Positions 34,615-47,900 of a DNA stretch of 64,000 bases are shown here, piece by piece. The notes under the pieces are model-generated. The model was not told the origin of the DNA. It worked only from the letters and a program-made list of their open reading frames with translations, and did not search any database. Origin of the DNA: a virus; IMG/VR virus record IMGVR_UViG_3300018080_008375, positions 1-64,000 of that record; one strand, written 5' to 3'. A program made the translations under genes and the position numbers. Positions within the stretch are counted from its first letter, which is position 1. Every line of letters starts with the position of its first letter.

Positions 34615-34960
34615 GGGGGTGAATTTGGTTTCGACGTGTACGATTGCGGCATAGGCTGCAGGCAGGAGGGTCGCTGGGACCTCCCTAATCCAACAGCGAA
34701 AAGCAAACGCGAACGAACAGTTTGCAATGGCCGCATAGGCCCGCCGGAGATGCTGCCCAGCCTGTCGGCGGCTTCTCCGGTGCGATGATGGCGGGCTAGC
34801 TGACGGAGGATCGTAGCCTCTCCAGAAGCGAAGCAACAGGCTGCGGACATCCCGGACAGAACCTGCCGGTGGGTGCTGCCTGGATGTATAAAACATCGGA
34901 CAAGCCTGTAGACGCCATGCCAAGGCGTGTGCGGACGGGGTTTCGATACCCCCACCTCCA
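34615..34960 (+). ncRNA. ssrA: Transfer-messenger RNA (tmRNA)
   Basis: 346-nt tmRNA. The tRNA-like ends pair (GGGGGTG with CACCTCC, G3-U70 alanine identity, 3' A) and share the hallmark GAATTTGGTTTCGACG near the 5' end and a T-arm GGGG-TTTCGAT-ACCCC near the 3' end. The reading frame starts at GCA 34703 and stops at TAG 34736-34738, giving the tag ANANEQFAMAA, which keeps the A-N-x-N-E...A-x-A-A pattern of bacterial tags. It rescues stalled ribosomes by trans-translation and marks the products for proteases. No SmpB gene is seen in the window. Confidence 0.97.
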
Positions 34961-34972
34961 CAAGTGATTGAT

Positions 34973-39949: not shown

Positions 39950-40609
39950 ATGAGAGATCCGGAGAGAATACCAGTAATATTGAGCAGGATCGAGGAGATC
40001 TGGAAGAAGAATCCGGACATGCGCCTCGGACAGCTGCTTTCAAACCCGTTTGTAGATCTAACGCCGCTGTTCTATTCGGAGGACGATGCCTTGGTGGGAC
40101 GGCTTGAGGACCTGTATGTCCGCGGAAAGCAGCTGGAGAAAAGCCACAGGTGGTGGATGGAAAGGATTCGCACTCCGAAGATAGGGGCGGCCGGCATTGT
40201 CGAAAGCAACCGCGGAAACCTGCTTGTGATAGAGCGCGGAAATCCCCCGCTCGGTTTCGCATTTCCAGGAGGATTCGTGGATATGGGCGAGACGGTTGCC
40301 GAGGCAGCCAGGCGCGAGGTTTTGGAGGAAACCGGCATCAGGACACTTCCTGCCTGCGCCGGCCTGTTGCGCTTGTCATCAAGGCCTTCCGACCATCCCG
40401 CGGATCATTTTGTTACTGTGTTCATGGTGATGTATGCTTTGGGCGAAAGCGATCCGCAAGCTGGAGACGATGCCTTGGACGCATGGTGGATGAGCCCTGA
40501 CAACTGCATGTCGTCGATAGGGGAGTTTGCGCCTGTGTACGGAGATGCTCTGAGGATGTATATGGGCTGGACTAAAAGCGGTCGTCCGAGGCTTCCAGAG
40601 GCGGCATAG
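39950..40609 (+). CDS. DUF1040-Nudix fusion protein
   Basis: 219 residues in two parts. Residues 1-50 (RIPVILSRIEEIWKKNPDMR, LGQLLSN) match DUF1040, a small domain of unknown function found in phages. From about 75 a Nudix domain begins, with GGFVDMGETVAEAARREVLE as the Nudix box. The substrate is unknown, perhaps ADP-ribose or a nucleoside triphosphate. The fusion suggests DUF1040 guides the hydrolase. Confidence 0.85.
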   Translation: MRDPERIPVILSRIEEIWKKNPDMRLGQLLSNPFVDLTPLFYSEDDALVGRLEDLYVRGKQLEKSHRWWMERIRTPKIGAAGIVESNRGNLLVIERGNPPLGFAFPGGFVDMGETVAEAARREVLEETGIRTLPACAGLLRLSSRPSDHPADHFVTVFMVMYALGESDPQAGDDALDAWWMSPDNCMSSIGEFAPVYGDALRMYMGWTKSGRPRLPEAA

Positions 40610-40617
40610 GAGGATAC

Positions 40618-41076
40618 ATGGGAAACAAGCCGTGGTACGGAGACTGGCACCTGCTGTACGAGCTTAGCAACAGCGGGGGACCGTATCCCTCCCCGCCCGC
40701 GCCGGGCGCCAAGGCGGTCCCGTTCGGATTCGAGGTTCCGAAGCATCCGTGGCCCGAGTGGCTGGACGGCAACTACAAGGTCCTGTCCAACCCGGCGTAC
40801 AGGTCGTCGTACGACAGCAGCTCAGCGAGCGGCTCGATCGGAATATACAGCTTCGAGATCCGGGTGGTCCTCAAGGACGGCGTGAGCGAGGAAGCGGCCG
40901 TCGAGCGCCTGTACGCGTCGGGATGCGACGACGCACTGTTTGCCGTGTGCGACGGGGGCGTCAGGCTCGATTTCGACAGGGAAGCCGATTCTTTAAGCGA
41001 GGCGCTGGATTCGGCCTGCGCCGATATCATGAAATCCGGCGTTGCGCTGATGTGCGGCAGCAAAAAGATACGATAG
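40618..41076 (+). CDS. Unknown protein
   Basis: 152 residues. Proline-rich aromatic N-terminus (GGPYPSPPAPGAK), then a C-terminal alpha/beta domain FEIRVVLKDGVSEEAAVERL, CDDALFAVCDGGVRLDFDRE. The final part resembles a small domain seen in several phage hypotheticals. TAGGAGG precedes ATG. Confidence 0.62.
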   Translation: MGNKPWYGDWHLLYELSNSGGPYPSPPAPGAKAVPFGFEVPKHPWPEWLDGNYKVLSNPAYRSSYDSSSASGSIGIYSFEIRVVLKDGVSEEAAVERLYASGCDDALFAVCDGGVRLDFDREADSLSEALDSACADIMKSGVALMCGSKKIR

Positions 41077-41087
41077 GAGGTTTCAAA

Positions 41088-41811
41088 ATGACAAACACAA
41101 GGAGGTCTCTTTGACAAGGCTCTTGTCGAGATAAGGGCCGCAGAAGGTGGAGACGACGCGAAGCTGCTTGTCTCGGACCTGTTCCAAGTCTACATGAAGT
41201 GGTGCCGCCGCCGCGGCTTCGAGGCTGACATGTCGTTCAGCGCCGAGGCTGGAGGCGGTTTTTCTTTGGTTGAATTCGTGGTGTCCGGAGACGGCGCGCG
41301 CGATGCGTTCATGAACGAAGCCGGAGGCCACAGGTTCCAGAGGGTGCCGCCAACAGAAAAGCGAGGAAGGAGACAGACATCCACGGTGACGGTGGCAGTC
41401 CTGCCGATAGCGTCCGAGACAGAAATGAGAATAGACCAGTCAGAGTTGTCATGGGAGGTGAAGCGCGGGAATGGAGCCGGAGGCCAGCATCGCAATGTTA
41501 CCGAAAGCGCCGTTAGGGTGACGCATGTTTCTACAGGCATTTCAGCCACATGCCAAGACGAGCGGTCCCAGCACCGCAACAAGAAGAGGGCGCTTGAGAT
41601 ACTGCGCGCCAGGCTTTTTGACAAGGTGGAATCGGAATCCGCAGCTGAGGAAAATGCCAGGAGAAAGAAGCAGGTTGGGTCAGGAATGCGCGGGGACAAG
41701 ATCAGGACCTACCGCTACCAGGACGGAAGGGCGGTGGATCACAGGACTGGCAGGAAGGTGAGGCTGGAAGATGTTTTGTCTGGAAACCTGGATGTTTTTC
41801 GAAAGGGCTAG
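41088..41811 (+). CDS. Short class I release factor with RF2-like +1 frameshift site
   Basis: Translation termination factor, 240 residues by a +1 shift. The ATG at 41088 (AGGAGG upstream) opens MTNTRRSL then UGA at 41112-41114. Bases AGGAGG-TCT-CTT-TGA-C copy the bacterial prfB frameshift site (Shine-Dalgarno-like AGGGGG, 3-nt spacer, CUU UGA C); slipping to UUU GAC continues DKALVEIRAAEGGDDAKLLV to the end. Codon recognition uses PPT (about 87-89), close to PAT/PVT of RF1, and GAGGQHRN carries the catalytic GGQ. Domain 1 of RF1/RF2 is missing. RF1-like reading of UAA/UAG is expected. Confidence 0.9.
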
Positions 41812-42971
41812 TTGTCCACTTTTTTGCCGGATCTCCACTGATAGCATGACCAGTACTTCGCCTTTGTCTTGTCTTTGGCGGATTCGCTGTCGCATTTGTG
41901 CCGAGAACGGAAATTTCTCCTGCGTTCCGGGTCGTCGCGCCTGATTTCCATTTCCGGGTCGCCAAACTGTATTTTGCGCACCTTCTTGGTTTTCGGGTCC
42001 TTTACAAAGACATGAAACTTTTTCTTGTTTCCTGGCGGGTTGCGAACCGGGTCGTTCAGCTTGATCTTTTTTCCTTGGTATTCGGCAGCCGACACATGTA
42101 GGCTGCTCTTTTTGGGTTTGGAGAATTCCTGGATCTTCCTGAACGATGCCTCGAATTCTTTTTCCATATCGATGATGGCTTGTTTTTTGTCGGTAATTTC
42201 TTGTTCAAGTTCTTCCCATCTGGGAGAGAGCCTGGAGCGTATCTCCTGGATCTCTTTGGCGCGCGGGTTTTTTCTCTCTATGCGCAGCATGCGCGCGTAT
42301 TCGGGACGCATTTTTTCCCTTTCGATGTTGAGCGTTTTCAGCTCCTGCCTGGCTCTTGGAATCATCTCCTCGCTAAGCTGGCGGGCGGCGTCTATTTCGC
42401 GCTCGAGCCTTGACCCCTTGGCCATTTTGGCGATGTCGGATATTTTCCAGGCGGCGTAGTGAAGCTCGTTGTCGAATGCGTGGAACGGCTTGAGGCCTTT
42501 TGACATGACATAGTTTATGAACGACTCCTTGTCCGTGAAGCCTAGGAGGCGCGTGGCGGCATAGGTGGTCGTGTATATCTTTTCTCCATTTCGGGTGTTG
42601 CGCTGGACAAAATCGCGCAGGCGCCCTGACACAGAGCGCGGAAGCTCTGAGAGGGGCATCTTGTACAGCTCCTCTTCCACGAGTTTGACCTCGTGAGGGG
42701 ACAGCGGTTCGCCTCGGTTCATTTTCTCTTTTAATTCCGCAGCTCTCCTGGCACATTTTGGACATTGCGACATATTGGGCGGAATTTCTTTTCCGCATAT
42801 GCGGCATGATGGTCTTTTTTCAGGTTTTTTTTCTTTGCGTTTTGTTTTGTGTGCGGACATCGGTCTGTCCGGGCAGTTTGGGCAGGTTGAAAGGTTTGCG
42901 GAAAACTTTCCGCCGCATTTCGGGCAGATGCGCCATCTGCCGGCTCGTTTGAACATGGGGCGTGTTGTCAT
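41808..42971 (-). CDS. Zinc-ribbon and coiled-coil protein with DUF5872-like C-terminus
   Basis: 387 residues on the minus strand. Two zinc ribbons at the N-terminus (CPKCGGKF...CPNC; CRICGKE...CPKC), a MerR-like helix-turn-helix (YAATRLLGFTDKESFINYVM), a long coiled coil, and a C-terminal domain with GDPEMEIRRDDPERRRNFRS, RHKCD and KAKYWSCYQW that recurs in phage proteins (DUF5872-like). It probably binds DNA; role unknown. Convergent with the release factor, sharing only CTAG. Own promoter lies in the gap at 42972-43045. Confidence 0.62.
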   Translation of the reverse strand: MTTRPMFKRAGRWRICPKCGGKFSANLSTCPNCPDRPMSAHKTKRKEKKPEKRPSCRICGKEIPPNMSQCPKCARRAAELKEKMNRGEPLSPHEVKLVEEELYKMPLSELPRSVSGRLRDFVQRNTRNGEKIYTTTYAATRLLGFTDKESFINYVMSKGLKPFHAFDNELHYAAWKISDIAKMAKGSRLEREIDAARQLSEEMIPRARQELKTLNIEREKMRPEYARMLRIERKNPRAKEIQEIRSRLSPRWEELEQEITDKKQAIIDMEKEFEASFRKIQEFSKPKKSSLHVSAAEYQGKKIKLNDPVRNPPGNKKKFHVFVKDPKTKKVRKIQFGDPEMEIRRDDPERRRNFRSRHKCDSESAKDKTKAKYWSCYQWRSGKKVDN

Positions 42972-43045
42972 GTCGCACTCCTACTGATGGTCAGTTATAT
43001 CTATTCGTGATTATTGATAGAATTTTGCCTAACAAGGATGGGACA
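42972..43045 (+). promoter_or_regulatory. Divergent intergenic region with shared motif CGTGATTATT
   Basis: This 74-nt AT-rich gap separates the minus-strand zinc-ribbon gene from thg1. CGTGATTATT at 43006-43015 is identical to the copy at 31997 in the other divergent gap and is followed by GATAGAATTTT, a possible -10. Probably a promoter or a regulator site used in both places. Confidence 0.45.
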
Positions 43046-43813
43046 ATGCTGTTCAAAGAGTTTGATGCGCGGATGCGCGTATACGAGACGGCGCACGACC
43101 AATGTGTTCTTCCTGGGGTATACATGGTTGCACGCCTTGATGGAAGGTGTTTTACGCGCCTTACAAAGGTACAAAGGTTTGAGAGGCCGTTTGACGTCGA
43201 TTTTCGCGACCATATGGTCGCCGTTGCGTGCCACTTGATGCGCTGTGGATTCAACGCAACATACGCTTACATACAGAGCGACGAAATTTCGCTGCTATTT
43301 GATTTGGCAGAAAACACTTTCGGTCGCAAGCTGCGCAAGTTAAATTCCGTGCTGGCAGGGGAGGCAAGCGCTAAGTTCACAAAATGCCTCGGCGGAGGGG
43401 ACATGGGAGTGTTCGATTGCCGCATTTCCCAGCTGCCGCGCACAGGCGATGTGGTTGATTACTTTCGCTGGAGGCAGGAGGACGCTTATCGCAATGCGCT
43501 ACATGGTCACTGCTATTGGATGCTTCGCGGCGATGGCAGGAGTGCTTCCGAAGCTACGAGCTTGTTAAGCGGCAGTTCGTCCTCCGACAAGCAAGAGCTG
43601 CTGTTTTCCAATGGGACGAACTTCAACGGCATTCCATTGTGGCATAAGCGCGGAACTGGGATATATTGGGAAACATACAAGAAGAAAGCTGCCAATCCAG
43701 TTACCGGCGACAAAGTGGATGTCGAGCGCAGGCGCATTAGAGTTGATTTTGAGTTGCCGATACATGATGAATATGCGTTGTTCGTGCGCCGTCTGATCGG
43801 CGTTTTGACATGA
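43046..43813 (+). CDS. tRNA-His guanylyltransferase/Thg1-like protein
   Basis: 255 residues of the Thg1 family, which adds nucleotides in 3'-to-5' direction to tRNA 5' ends. KEFDARMRVYE, MVARLDGRCFTRLT with D32, IQSDEISLLF with D79/E80 (metal ligands of the polymerase-like palm), NSVLAGEASAKF and FNGIPLWHKRGTGIYWE are all present. Bacterial Thg1-like proteins mainly repair truncated tRNA 5' ends. It sits in a phage whose tRNAs are processed from dense transcripts, and tRNA-His already has an encoded G-1, so repair is likely. Confidence 0.92.
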   Translation: MLFKEFDARMRVYETAHDQCVLPGVYMVARLDGRCFTRLTKVQRFERPFDVDFRDHMVAVACHLMRCGFNATYAYIQSDEISLLFDLAENTFGRKLRKLNSVLAGEASAKFTKCLGGGDMGVFDCRISQLPRTGDVVDYFRWRQEDAYRNALHGHCYWMLRGDGRSASEATSLLSGSSSSDKQELLFSNGTNFNGIPLWHKRGTGIYWETYKKKAANPVTGDKVDVERRRIRVDFELPIHDEYALFVRRLIGVLT

Positions 43814-43831: not shown

Positions 43832-44365
43832 ATGGAAGTTCACTGGATAGCCGCTATTTCCGCCATCTTGCCCATGGCGTTTCTGCAGAGCGTCATACAC
43901 CAGCTGTCGCACGGACTGGCAATGCGGATTGGATGGAAGTGGGGGTTTAAAATACATCCGCTCCCATCCAAGGGGGCGTCTGGCGTTGTATGGCCGCATG
44001 TGACATACAGGATGTGTAGTAAATCGTGCGATCTGGACATGTTCGGAAAGGCTATCGCATCTATTGCGCCAAAAATAGCGAATGTCGTCTTGGTCATGGC
44101 ATCTGGCATTGCCATAACTCAGTTGCTTAATCCAACGCTTCTGACCCTTCTGCTCATGTTCGCCTTGGCGAACACAGTCGACTTCATGTCTGCGTTGTCA
44201 ATATTTCGCAAAAGCGGCACTTCGGACATATGGAGGTTTTCCAACTACACCGGAATCGAAACCAGTCATGTAAGATGGTTCGTGGCTGCAATTTCATTTT
44301 TGCTGCTGCTGCTAGTTGTCGTGTCTTTTTTCGGTCGGGTGCTTCCACAGACGGGAATATTATGA
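43832..44365 (+). CDS. Multi-span membrane protein with HQxxH motif
   Basis: 177 residues with about three to four membrane helices. HQLSHGLAMRIGW recalls the HExxH of site-2 (M50) proteases with Q in place of the catalytic E, and VDFMSALSIF may be a second site. If related, it is probably inactive as a protease or binds metal. ATG 43832 follows GGAGGG; TTG 43829 is an alternative. Ends in ATGA overlap with the ADP-ribosylglycohydrolase gene. Confidence 0.5.
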   Translation: MEVHWIAAISAILPMAFLQSVIHQLSHGLAMRIGWKWGFKIHPLPSKGASGVVWPHVTYRMCSKSCDLDMFGKAIASIAPKIANVVLVMASGIAITQLLNPTLLTLLLMFALANTVDFMSALSIFRKSGTSDIWRFSNYTGIETSHVRWFVAAISFLLLLLVVVSFFGRVLPQTGIL

Positions 44366-45471
44366 ATCGCATCATTAGGTCGAGAGTGCGCGGCGCCATT
44401 GTCGGAACGGCGATAGGCGATGCGCTCGGGATGCCCGCGGAGGGCATGACGCCACAAGCCATAGCCCAGATGTACGGTCGCCTTCGTTCTTTTGCGAATC
44501 CTAAAGGGGGGACCTGGGCGCATACACATCATCAGCTTGGGCGAGGGCAGTGGACGGACGACACGCAGCTTATGCTCGCCATTGGCGAATCGCTTTTGGC
44601 AAAGAAGCATGTCGATTTCCGGGACATCGCGGACAGGCATATATCCGCGATGGCGGAAAAGCGCGGATGGGGCGGATCGACGGTCACCGGCGTTTCCAAG
44701 ATACGCGCCGGAGTGAATTGGTGGAACTCCGCCAAGCCGGAAGGCGCAGGCAACGGAACGCCCATGAAGATTGCGGCTGTCGGAGCGGTTGCCGGATTAG
44801 GTTTCCTCAAGCCGTTTGACATGGCGTCGACGGTGATCAACATTTCTCGCATGACGCACGGCGACCCGCGGTCTGCGATAGCCGGCATCATCCAGGCTGA
44901 AGCCATCGCCATTGCAATCAAGGGAGGACCAGCGGCCCTCCGCTTGTATCTTGCCCAAGCCGATCAGAGAGCCGAAAGCTGGGAGCGCTGCGTCGGCTCG
45001 CAGGCTCCGCTTCTCAGCGCCAATATGTCTGCCGGTCAGAGTATCATCATGCGCGGCGGCGATCTTGAAAACCTTAGGTCCGCGCTGCGAGCCGGATGCT
45101 TCGTGGTGCAGTCGTTCCCATTCACAATTTCGGCCGTTCTCCTGATGTTCGACCTGCCGCCCGACGAATGCCTGTCCAGGATCGTCGAGCAGGGGGGCGA
45201 TACCGACACTACCGGCGCCATGGCTGGCGCGGTGCTTGGGGCGGCGCATGGCATGGCGTCGTTCCCGGCGCGGCTCAGGCGCGGACTTGAGGGCTATAAA
45301 AGGCTTATTGCTCTTGCTGACGGACTGTGCGCGATGACGGACATGTCGGAGCGTCCATGCGTAAGCGGGAAGTCGTTTTCCAGACCAAAGATTTCCTTTT
45401 CGCGCGGCAACGAAAAGCCAAAGACCTGCCAGCCTTTGGCTGACCTGGCGTTGTCAGCGGAGGGGATGTGA
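44362..45471 (+). CDS. ADP-ribosylglycohydrolase (DraG-like)
   Basis: 369 residues of the ARH/DraG family that removes ADP-ribose from proteins, nucleic acids or small molecules. Motifs: GDALGMPAEG, WTDDTQLML (TDDT metal ligands), GNGTPMKIA, MTHGDPRSA, and QGGDTDTTGAMAG near the C-terminus (second metal site). Several phages and hosts use ADP-ribosylation in conflict, so it may undo host ADP-ribosylation, or regulate the phage's own. ATGA-coupled to the membrane protein before it. Confidence 0.92.
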   Translation: MNRIIRSRVRGAIVGTAIGDALGMPAEGMTPQAIAQMYGRLRSFANPKGGTWAHTHHQLGRGQWTDDTQLMLAIGESLLAKKHVDFRDIADRHISAMAEKRGWGGSTVTGVSKIRAGVNWWNSAKPEGAGNGTPMKIAAVGAVAGLGFLKPFDMASTVINISRMTHGDPRSAIAGIIQAEAIAIAIKGGPAALRLYLAQADQRAESWERCVGSQAPLLSANMSAGQSIIMRGGDLENLRSALRAGCFVVQSFPFTISAVLLMFDLPPDECLSRIVEQGGDTDTTGAMAGAVLGAAHGMASFPARLRRGLEGYKRLIALADGLCAMTDMSERPCVSGKSFSRPKISFSRGNEKPKTCQPLADLALSAEGM

Positions 45472-46756: not shown

Positions 46757-47226
46757 TGGGCGACGAGCTTACTCGTAAAGAAGCGAAGAGGGTAAGGGCT
46801 TTCCGCAAGGAGCTTGAGCACTGGAAAGAGATCCTTATGATGGATCCTCTTTGGGACATACGCTTATCGGTCGTCAGCGACGACAGTAAAGCGTTCAGCA
46901 AGTCGGCCGTCGAGCGAAGTGGCAAAAAATTCATTAAGAGATCGTTCTGCGATTTATCCAAGACGGAATACTATTCCGGCGACATAGGGCTAGCCAGAAG
47001 TGCGCTGTCCGTTCCGGAATCCGAAGCCGAGCATATGAGGCGTGACACGATGTCGCACGAGATGATCCACTTCCTGACCGCAGACTATCATCGGGCAGCC
47101 CTGGCGGCCGCTGGAGGCGACCAGAGGGTGATAAACGAGCTGGCATACAGGTACGAACAGCTGGTTGTGCGCATTGCCGCGATAGTCTGTGCCTTGGATG
47201 CCGAAATACGCGACGAGGGCAAGTAA
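46756..47226 (+). CDS. Zincin-like putative metallopeptidase
   Basis: 156 residues. Contains SHEMIHFLTADYH, an HExxH zinc-protease signature with D/H ligands nearby, after WDIRLSVVSDD. Similar small phage proteins with HExxH occur in large phages; some are ImmA/SprT-like. Helical ends otherwise. Follows YqeY directly. Protease activity unproven. Confidence 0.6.
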   Translation: MGDELTRKEAKRVRAFRKELEHWKEILMMDPLWDIRLSVVSDDSKAFSKSAVERSGKKFIKRSFCDLSKTEYYSGDIGLARSALSVPESEAEHMRRDTMSHEMIHFLTADYHRAALAAAGGDQRVINELAYRYEQLVVRIAAIVCALDAEIRDEGK

Positions 47227-47900
47227 TGGACGACCATCCGATATATAGTTTGCGCCAGGCGTGCTATGACTGTCGCGACTGTCCGCTGGGAAACCGTCTT
47301 GTGAATGGCTTGGATCCGCATGTGTTCGCGGGCGGAAACATACATGCCAGCATAATGTTCGTGGGCGAGGCTCCGGGAGCGGAGGAGGTCAGGCAGAAAA
47401 GACCTTTGGTGGGGCGGTCCGGATGGTTTTATGAGAACCACATACTTGCCGGAGCAGGTTTGTTCAGACGCAGTGTATATACCACCAATGCTGTGTTATG
47501 TCGACCCGACGAGAAAAACCGCACGCCGAATTCGTCGGAAATAGACGCATGCCGCAGGCATTTGGACGCCCAGGTGCTATTTGTGAGACCCAAGCTGATT
47601 GTGACTCTCGGTAACGCGCCGCTGTACGCCCTGTGCGGAATAGGCGGCATAACCAAGTATCGCGGAAAGCTCCGCAACTCGAACCCATGGTCTGACGGAA
47701 GCATTACCAAGGTGTTTCCGATGTTCCATCCGGCATACTGCCTGAGGGGGAGCGGTCTGAAGGAGACCAAGGAGGACTACGAGGCGCTGGGCAGGATGGC
47801 GCTGGAGTTCGAGCAAAGCATAGCCGGCAAAGAGGACGTCAGGTGCGTGCAGGAGTTGTACCGGGTCGCAGAGGAAGGCAAAGGCAATGGGAGAGCATGA
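47226..47900 (+). CDS. Uracil-DNA glycosylase, family 4/5
   Basis: 224 residues. Fe-S uracil-DNA glycosylase: CYDCRDCPLG provides the first cluster cysteines, VGEAPGAEE and PLVGRSGWF the uracil-binding loop, YTTNAVLCRPDEKNRTP, then LGNAPLYALCGIGGITKYRG and FPMFHPAYCLR with the HP motif. It removes uracil from DNA, protecting a GC-rich genome or acting with ThyX and dUTP-related enzymes. The next gene overlaps by 14 nt. Confidence 0.9.
   Translation: MDDHPIYSLRQACYDCRDCPLGNRLVNGLDPHVFAGGNIHASIMFVGEAPGAEEVRQKRPLVGRSGWFYENHILAGAGLFRRSVYTTNAVLCRPDEKNRTPNSSEIDACRRHLDAQVLFVRPKLIVTLGNAPLYALCGIGGITKYRGKLRNSNPWSDGSITKVFPMFHPAYCLRGSGLKETKEDYEALGRMALEFEQSIAGKEDVRCVQELYRVAEEGKGNGRA

Follow-up and report, generated by a model that had tools for sequence, protein, structure and literature searches.

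A prfB-like +1 frameshift site before a truncated RF1-type release factor gene in a phage, and stop-blocked relatives in phages and bacteria

In prfB, the gene for release factor RF2, an in-frame stop codon is sensed by RF2 (PMC12421855). The window analyzed here, a 64,000-nucleotide stretch that forms part of a 99,821-base IMG/VR virus record carrying one RF-1 domain, contains a site of the same design at the start of a gene whose product resembles RF1, raising the question of what would unlock a factor of this type from behind a UGA codon and whether the arrangement extends beyond this phage. The original prediction was that a programmed +1 shift places a UAA/UAG-specific phage factor under the control of host RF2, being switched on when RF2 is low.

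The shift site and the encoded protein

The leader reads ATG ACA AAC ACA AGG AGG TCT CTT and is followed by the stop TGA (41112-41114) and the base C. The features of the locus, all on the plus strand, are as follows.

41075..41080, + strand: AGGAGG, ribosome-binding site for the leader ORF, spaced 7 nt from the ATG at 41088 (sequence)
41088..41111, + strand: leader ORF encoding MTNTRRSL, terminated by TGA (sequence)
41100..41105, + strand: internal Shine-Dalgarno-like (SD-like) stimulator AGGAGG, 3 nt before CTT; SD-like sequence is also common in relatives
41109..41115, + strand: shift site CTT-TGA-C, slippery CTTT, stop at 41112-41114 (sequence, motif count)
41113..41811, + strand: bulk of the coding sequence, 232 codons in the +1 frame followed by TAG, for a truncated class I release factor of RF1 type
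41116..41394, + strand: PCRF domain, C-terminal half only (Pfam, profile positions 101-194); release factor domain 1 absent
41347..41355, + strand: codon-recognition tripeptide PPT, RF1 type (sequence, family alignment)
41416..41745, + strand: RF-1 domain, PF00472 (Pfam)
41479..41487, + strand: catalytic GGQ (sequence)

The locus combines all elements of a prfB-type +1 site, namely an SD-like element, a 3-nt spacing, CTT, an in-frame stop, a following C and a main ORF in the +1 frame, and its order and spacing are identical to those of Escherichia coli prfB (AGGRGG-N3-CTT-TGA-C). The original prediction had described this arrangement correctly except in one detail: it placed AGGAGG after eight codons, whereas the hexamer forms codons 5-6 of a leader with eight sense codons including the ATG. 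The +1 frame is open from GAC at 41113 through to TAG at 41809-41811, yielding a product of 240 aa with the leader included, and everything beyond the leader is encoded in this frame only, in agreement with the claim that it alone gives the full protein with GAGGQHRN. A better start codon within the second frame would have offered a simpler reading, but none that is usable was found: the +1 frame has no ATG, GTG or TTG upstream of 41194, and initiation at 41194 would, according to the structure model, cost domain 2 its first strand and most of its first helix. RGGRGGNNNCTTTGAC is present at a single place in the 64-kb window, against a chance expectation of 0.02; for a looser motif accepting any of the three stops, the expectation is 0.07 per strand. 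The recoding site is almost certainly functional. Further downstream, GGAGGCGGTTTTTCTTTGG at 41251-41269 lies near the internal shift position of relatives but is read in frame here (GGGFSL), and is possibly the remnant of a lost internal shift site.

The protein consists of domains 2-4 of an RF1-type class I factor with domain 1 missing. Its NCBIfam HMM scores are highest for prfA (264-269 bits), followed by prfB (190 bits) and prfH (98 bits), all under the cut-offs: the two prfA models score 264.2 bits (cut-off 423.25) and 268.6 bits (cut-off 400) with alignments starting only at model position 106-114, and the PrfH model TIGR03072 scores 98.4 bits (cut-off 166.65). The best sequence matches among solved structures are RF1s, and an AlphaFold2 model (mean pLDDT 89.6) has ribosome-bound Thermus RF1 as its top PDB match (TM 0.91, 46% identity, without domain 1). 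Pfam, sequence and structure match bear out the PPT tripeptide, the RF1 likeness and the absent domain 1 that had been noted from the sequence. The reading residues of RF1 are kept, with PPT and the equivalents of Q181 and T194 all present; the latter two touch the third codon base in RF1. In the family alignment, PPT is found in 156 of 182 members and Q181 in 174 of 182, while the stacking His193 is replaced by Gln in the window protein and 64 of 182 relatives. SPF, the tripeptide of RF2, was not seen across the family, and PPT occupies the aligned position in the window. Going by PPT and the Q residue, the product should not read UGA and may be UAA/UAG-specific, as originally predicted.

The window also encodes 31 tRNAs and one tmRNA, the latter at 34615-34961 with the tag ANEQFAMAA. 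Near the release factor gene are genes for a Thg1-like tRNA-His guanylyltransferase (42962-43810, same strand, the next plus-strand gene), an ADP-ribosylglycohydrolase (44230-45468), a NUDIX protein (39950-40606) and a uracil-DNA glycosylase (47226-47897).

Relatives in phages and bacteria

A close-relative scan with the single window protein gave no matches, and for this reason profiles were used. The first relatives came from six huge phages in GenBank, where LR745208 carries CGGAGGGGT-CTT-TGA-C within domain 2, the leader of LR756511 has a CTT-TAA-C site followed by a CTT-TGA-C site, and others have an in-frame TGA; a pattern scan for GGAGG..CTTTGACAARGC returned nine contigs. Profile scans over IMG/VR and 84,980 species genomes recovered several hundred loci, the phage loci being nearly all from metagenome assemblies, and frame-aware alignment followed by clustering at 90% identity reduced these to 199 truncated RF1-like genes or clusters. 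About 95% of the clusters (190 of 199) need recoding to get past a stop codon: 99 have an internal +1 shift (class A), 57 have one in-frame stop and 18 have two (class B; 75 of 199 clusters, mostly UGA at tryptophan positions), and 16 have a leader shift (class C). The last group includes the window. The nine clusters without recoding include L013, the nearest relative of the window (62-64% identity), indicating that recoding is not essential for using the gene. None of the 29 full-length RF1s from the same scan is recoded.

Internal shifts occur nearly always at one codon of domain 2, 31 codons past the EIRAAEGG motif, and CTT directly precedes the stop in 97 of 99 cases, typically in the layout CGG-AGG-NNN-CTT. 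The stops at these CTT sites are TGA (75), TAG (19) and TAA (3), and SD-like sequence lies upstream of CTT in 82 of the 97, compared with a rate of 13.2% at control positions within these genes; the two non-CTT exceptions, together with a few fragments, appear to be copies that are damaged or misaligned. The leader-shift sites precede domain 2, and six of the 16 clusters reach an ATG only via two successive +1 sites, as illustrated by the tandem leader of L166 (AGGGGGTGT-CTT-TAG, 34 nt, AGGGGGTGC-CTT-TAG). UAG is the stop in 24 of the 115 clusters with a +1 shift, and UAA occurs in some. Recoding stops stand in a weak termination context, the next base being U in only 4 of 211, in contrast to 96 of 199 at the same genes' own terminators (Fisher p 1e-31).

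In-frame stops recur at a small set of fixed positions, most commonly those that hold Trp in canonical RF1, and are mostly followed by A at the +4 position; the RF1-like genes L035 and L036 (3127 and 3151) combine an in-frame TGA with an in-frame TAG, each at a Trp position. Genome-wide reading of TGA as Trp in the class B phages was considered and ruled out, as UGA serves as an ordinary terminator in phages with in-frame-stop release factor genes, and Trp outside the release factor gene is TGG in 424 cases with a single TGA aligned to W (117 conserved segments, 47 class B contigs, 24,986 codons). With TGG encoding Trp elsewhere in these phages, readthrough would be specific to the release factor gene. 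Suppressor-like tRNAs with the anticodons tca and cta are present in several phages with recoded release factor genes (L117:19123-19297, L129:5664-5737, L281:3135-3207, L282, L293), and in L281, L282 and L293 they lie about 1 kb past the gene; since these few relatives carry them, readthrough there may be assisted.

Bacterial carriers include the Myxococcota Minicystis rosea, Nannocystis, Archangium and Pyxidicoccus, as well as Novimethylophilus, Jiella, Rhodovibrio, Variovorax and more; in some carriers the gene may belong to a prophage. Full-length prfA (RF1) and prfB (RF2) are also present in the carrier genomes checked, making the truncated gene a third release factor. In Novimethylophilus (L418:681-2924), a kinase-phosphatase-RNA ligase gene lies directly 5′ of the RF1-like gene in an arrangement reminiscent of the RtcB-PrfH pairing, and three copies of the truncated gene, none of them recoded, occur in the Myxococcales MAG nzgw250 (L344, L342, L343). 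A phylogenetic tree, leaving out two PrfH rows, resolved one clade each for RF1, RF2 and PrfH. The 12 RF1s form a single clade (SH-aLRT 100) with the truncated family outside, and the family itself is compatible with a single clade (AU p 0.997); placement in the RF2 group, which would have overturned the original prediction, was supported neither by the separate RF2 clade nor by the HMM scores. The mechanism (frameshift, readthrough or none) changes at least 17 times on the tree and the exact layout 24 times, both rough figures with many inner branches weak. The lock nevertheless outlives its own position, being kept or regained as its place and type change.

What the embedded stop may sense

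We propose that the full factor is translated only after a programmed +1 shift at CUU-UGA-C. Fast termination at the embedded stop would release a short peptide and leave the factor unmade, while slow termination would let the ribosome pause and then slip or, in relatives, read through, yielding the factor. Host RF2 would be the reader of the window's UGA, whereas the product should neither read it nor feed back on its own shift site, which would give control by host termination capacity without autoregulation. As a whole, this reading of a truncated, +1-gated RF1-type factor whose embedded stop is a termination sensor is our best explanation, with a probability of about 0.7; that slow termination at the stop is what switches the factor on is, taken separately, fairly probable. 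We infer that the shift occurs in cells and depends on RF2 at this site, and that the factor, once made, provides extra UAA/UAG release or rescues jammed ribosomes. Host RF2 is still the expected reader of the window's UGA, but the predicted RF2-specific logic misfits the family as a whole because UAG and UAA shift sites and many cases of in-frame readthrough occur. Sensing of slow termination in general fits the family better, being the common denominator of relatives that use UAG and UAA too. Counting against our best explanation are the nine clusters without recoding, the origin of almost all phage loci in metagenome assemblies, and the fact that the sequence gives no reason for an RF1-type factor to answer to UGA.

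With the same recoding, the product could instead be a rescue factor like PrfH that frees ribosomes when damage (cut rRNA or tRNA, or a jammed decoding center) has jammed them, with the stop sensing bad termination by damaged ribosomes so that any stop serves. The free identity of the stop (UGA, UAG or UAA) and the absence of domain 1, as in PrfH, point in this direction, as do the Thg1-like tRNA enzyme encoded next on the window's plus strand, the kinase-phosphatase-RNA ligase gene before the Novimethylophilus RF1-like gene, and the content of 39 related phage records, of which 15 have a tmRNA above the Rfam cut-off and 10 a type-1 RNA ligase (raw counts), the ligase being within about 1-1.5 kb of the release factor gene in two. 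However, RtcB, the partner of PrfH, is found in just 4 of the 39 and nowhere in the 99,821-base window record, and PxT, Q181 and GGQ are intact as in true codon-reading factors, unlike PrfH. We regard the rescue role as a serious candidate, albeit with odds somewhat below even.

Sensing would be dispensable if the stop merely held a factor that is toxic in excess at a constant low dose, and very low output would indeed be expected from the serial stops, of which there are 18 in-frame pairs and 6 tandem shift pairs. A weak start codon would be simpler, though, and the conserved prfB-type stimulator together with the avoidance of U after the stop favors an efficient bypass that depends on competition with termination, making a constant dose unlikely. 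Slightly less likely still is autoregulation as in prfB, whereby the product would limit its own supply by terminating at the embedded stop. At UAG or UAA sites this would be feasible for an RF1-type factor, UAG alone accounting for the 24 of 115 +1-shift clusters given above, but most sites, including that of the window, are UGA, which such a factor is not expected to read, and the RF2 motif was not seen in the family. A sequencing error, a pseudogene or an alternative genetic code is hardly credible. While the window is a single metagenome contig in which one inserted base would mimic a shift, the same codon, CTT and SD element recur in independent assemblies and in isolates (Minicystis, Nannocystis, Archangium, Pyxidicoccus), conservation of coding and catalytic residues extends to either side of the site, and UGA terminates in these phages and does not encode Trp in the class B phages tested.

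Returning to the termination sensor, the approximately 200 relatives in phages and bacteria, about 95% of them stop-blocked, suggest that a sensor of failing translation termination is widespread and has apparently gone undescribed. We lean toward the view that phages and bacteria share a third RF1-type class locked behind any stop or stops as an alarm for termination failure, its mechanism having switched between frameshift and readthrough many times. The family further points to a role for phages in monitoring or supporting termination in the host, and it offers many natural variants for testing the RF1/RF2 dependence of +1 shifting and readthrough. For annotation, gene callers will call many such genes broken or place their starts too late.

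Comparison with known release factor systems

Set against published systems, the family is a new form of recoding in a release factor of bacterial type: its RF1-type genes, in phages and in culturable bacteria, show frameshifting as well as readthrough, use each of the three stops and include tandem shifts. The prfB shift, likewise obligatory and early in the frame, shares the SD-like hexamer, 3-nt spacer, CUU, UGA and C with the window, yet its product is RF2, whereas that of the window is RF1-type and truncated, and the site in relatives can sit inside domain 2, be double or use UAG. Among 8,164 prfB shift genes, the stop was TGA in 98.6% and TAA in 1.4%, and never TAG, and across more than 12,000 genomes a convincing programmed shift was not found for prfA (Prince et al. 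2025; PMC12421855). In-frame UGA readthrough was reported for no RF2 gene, and a UAG/RF1 counterpart was unknown, at the time of the review by Atkins et al. 2016 (PMC5009743). Our search of open-licence literature found no phage RF1 frameshift, and the release-factor, recoding and stop-codon passages of the huge-phage paper list RF1, RF2 and tmRNA with no frameshift in release factor genes.

RF1 (prfA) is the closest family by score and shares PxT, the Q181/T194 equivalents, GGQ and the C-terminal GSGxRxDKxRTY region, while the window protein differs in lacking domain 1, reaching 264 of 423 bits, falling outside the RF1 clade and being stop-gated. PrfH/RFH (RtcB2-PrfH) resembles the family as a class I fold without domain 1, a third factor of bacteria and a possible link to RNA repair, but it forms a separate clade, lacks PxT and pairs with RtcB, and the literature examined mentions no frameshift in its gene. 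Another viral release factor gene with both recoding events is the class I gene of Mimivirus and Megavirus (R726/mg280), which combines UGA readthrough with a CUU-UAG-C or CUU-UAA-C +1 shift (Jeudy et al. 2012; PMC3521657). That gene is of the eukaryotic/archaeal eRF1 type and unrelated in sequence, whereas the family described here has the bacterial RF1 fold, three recoding layouts and a large membership.
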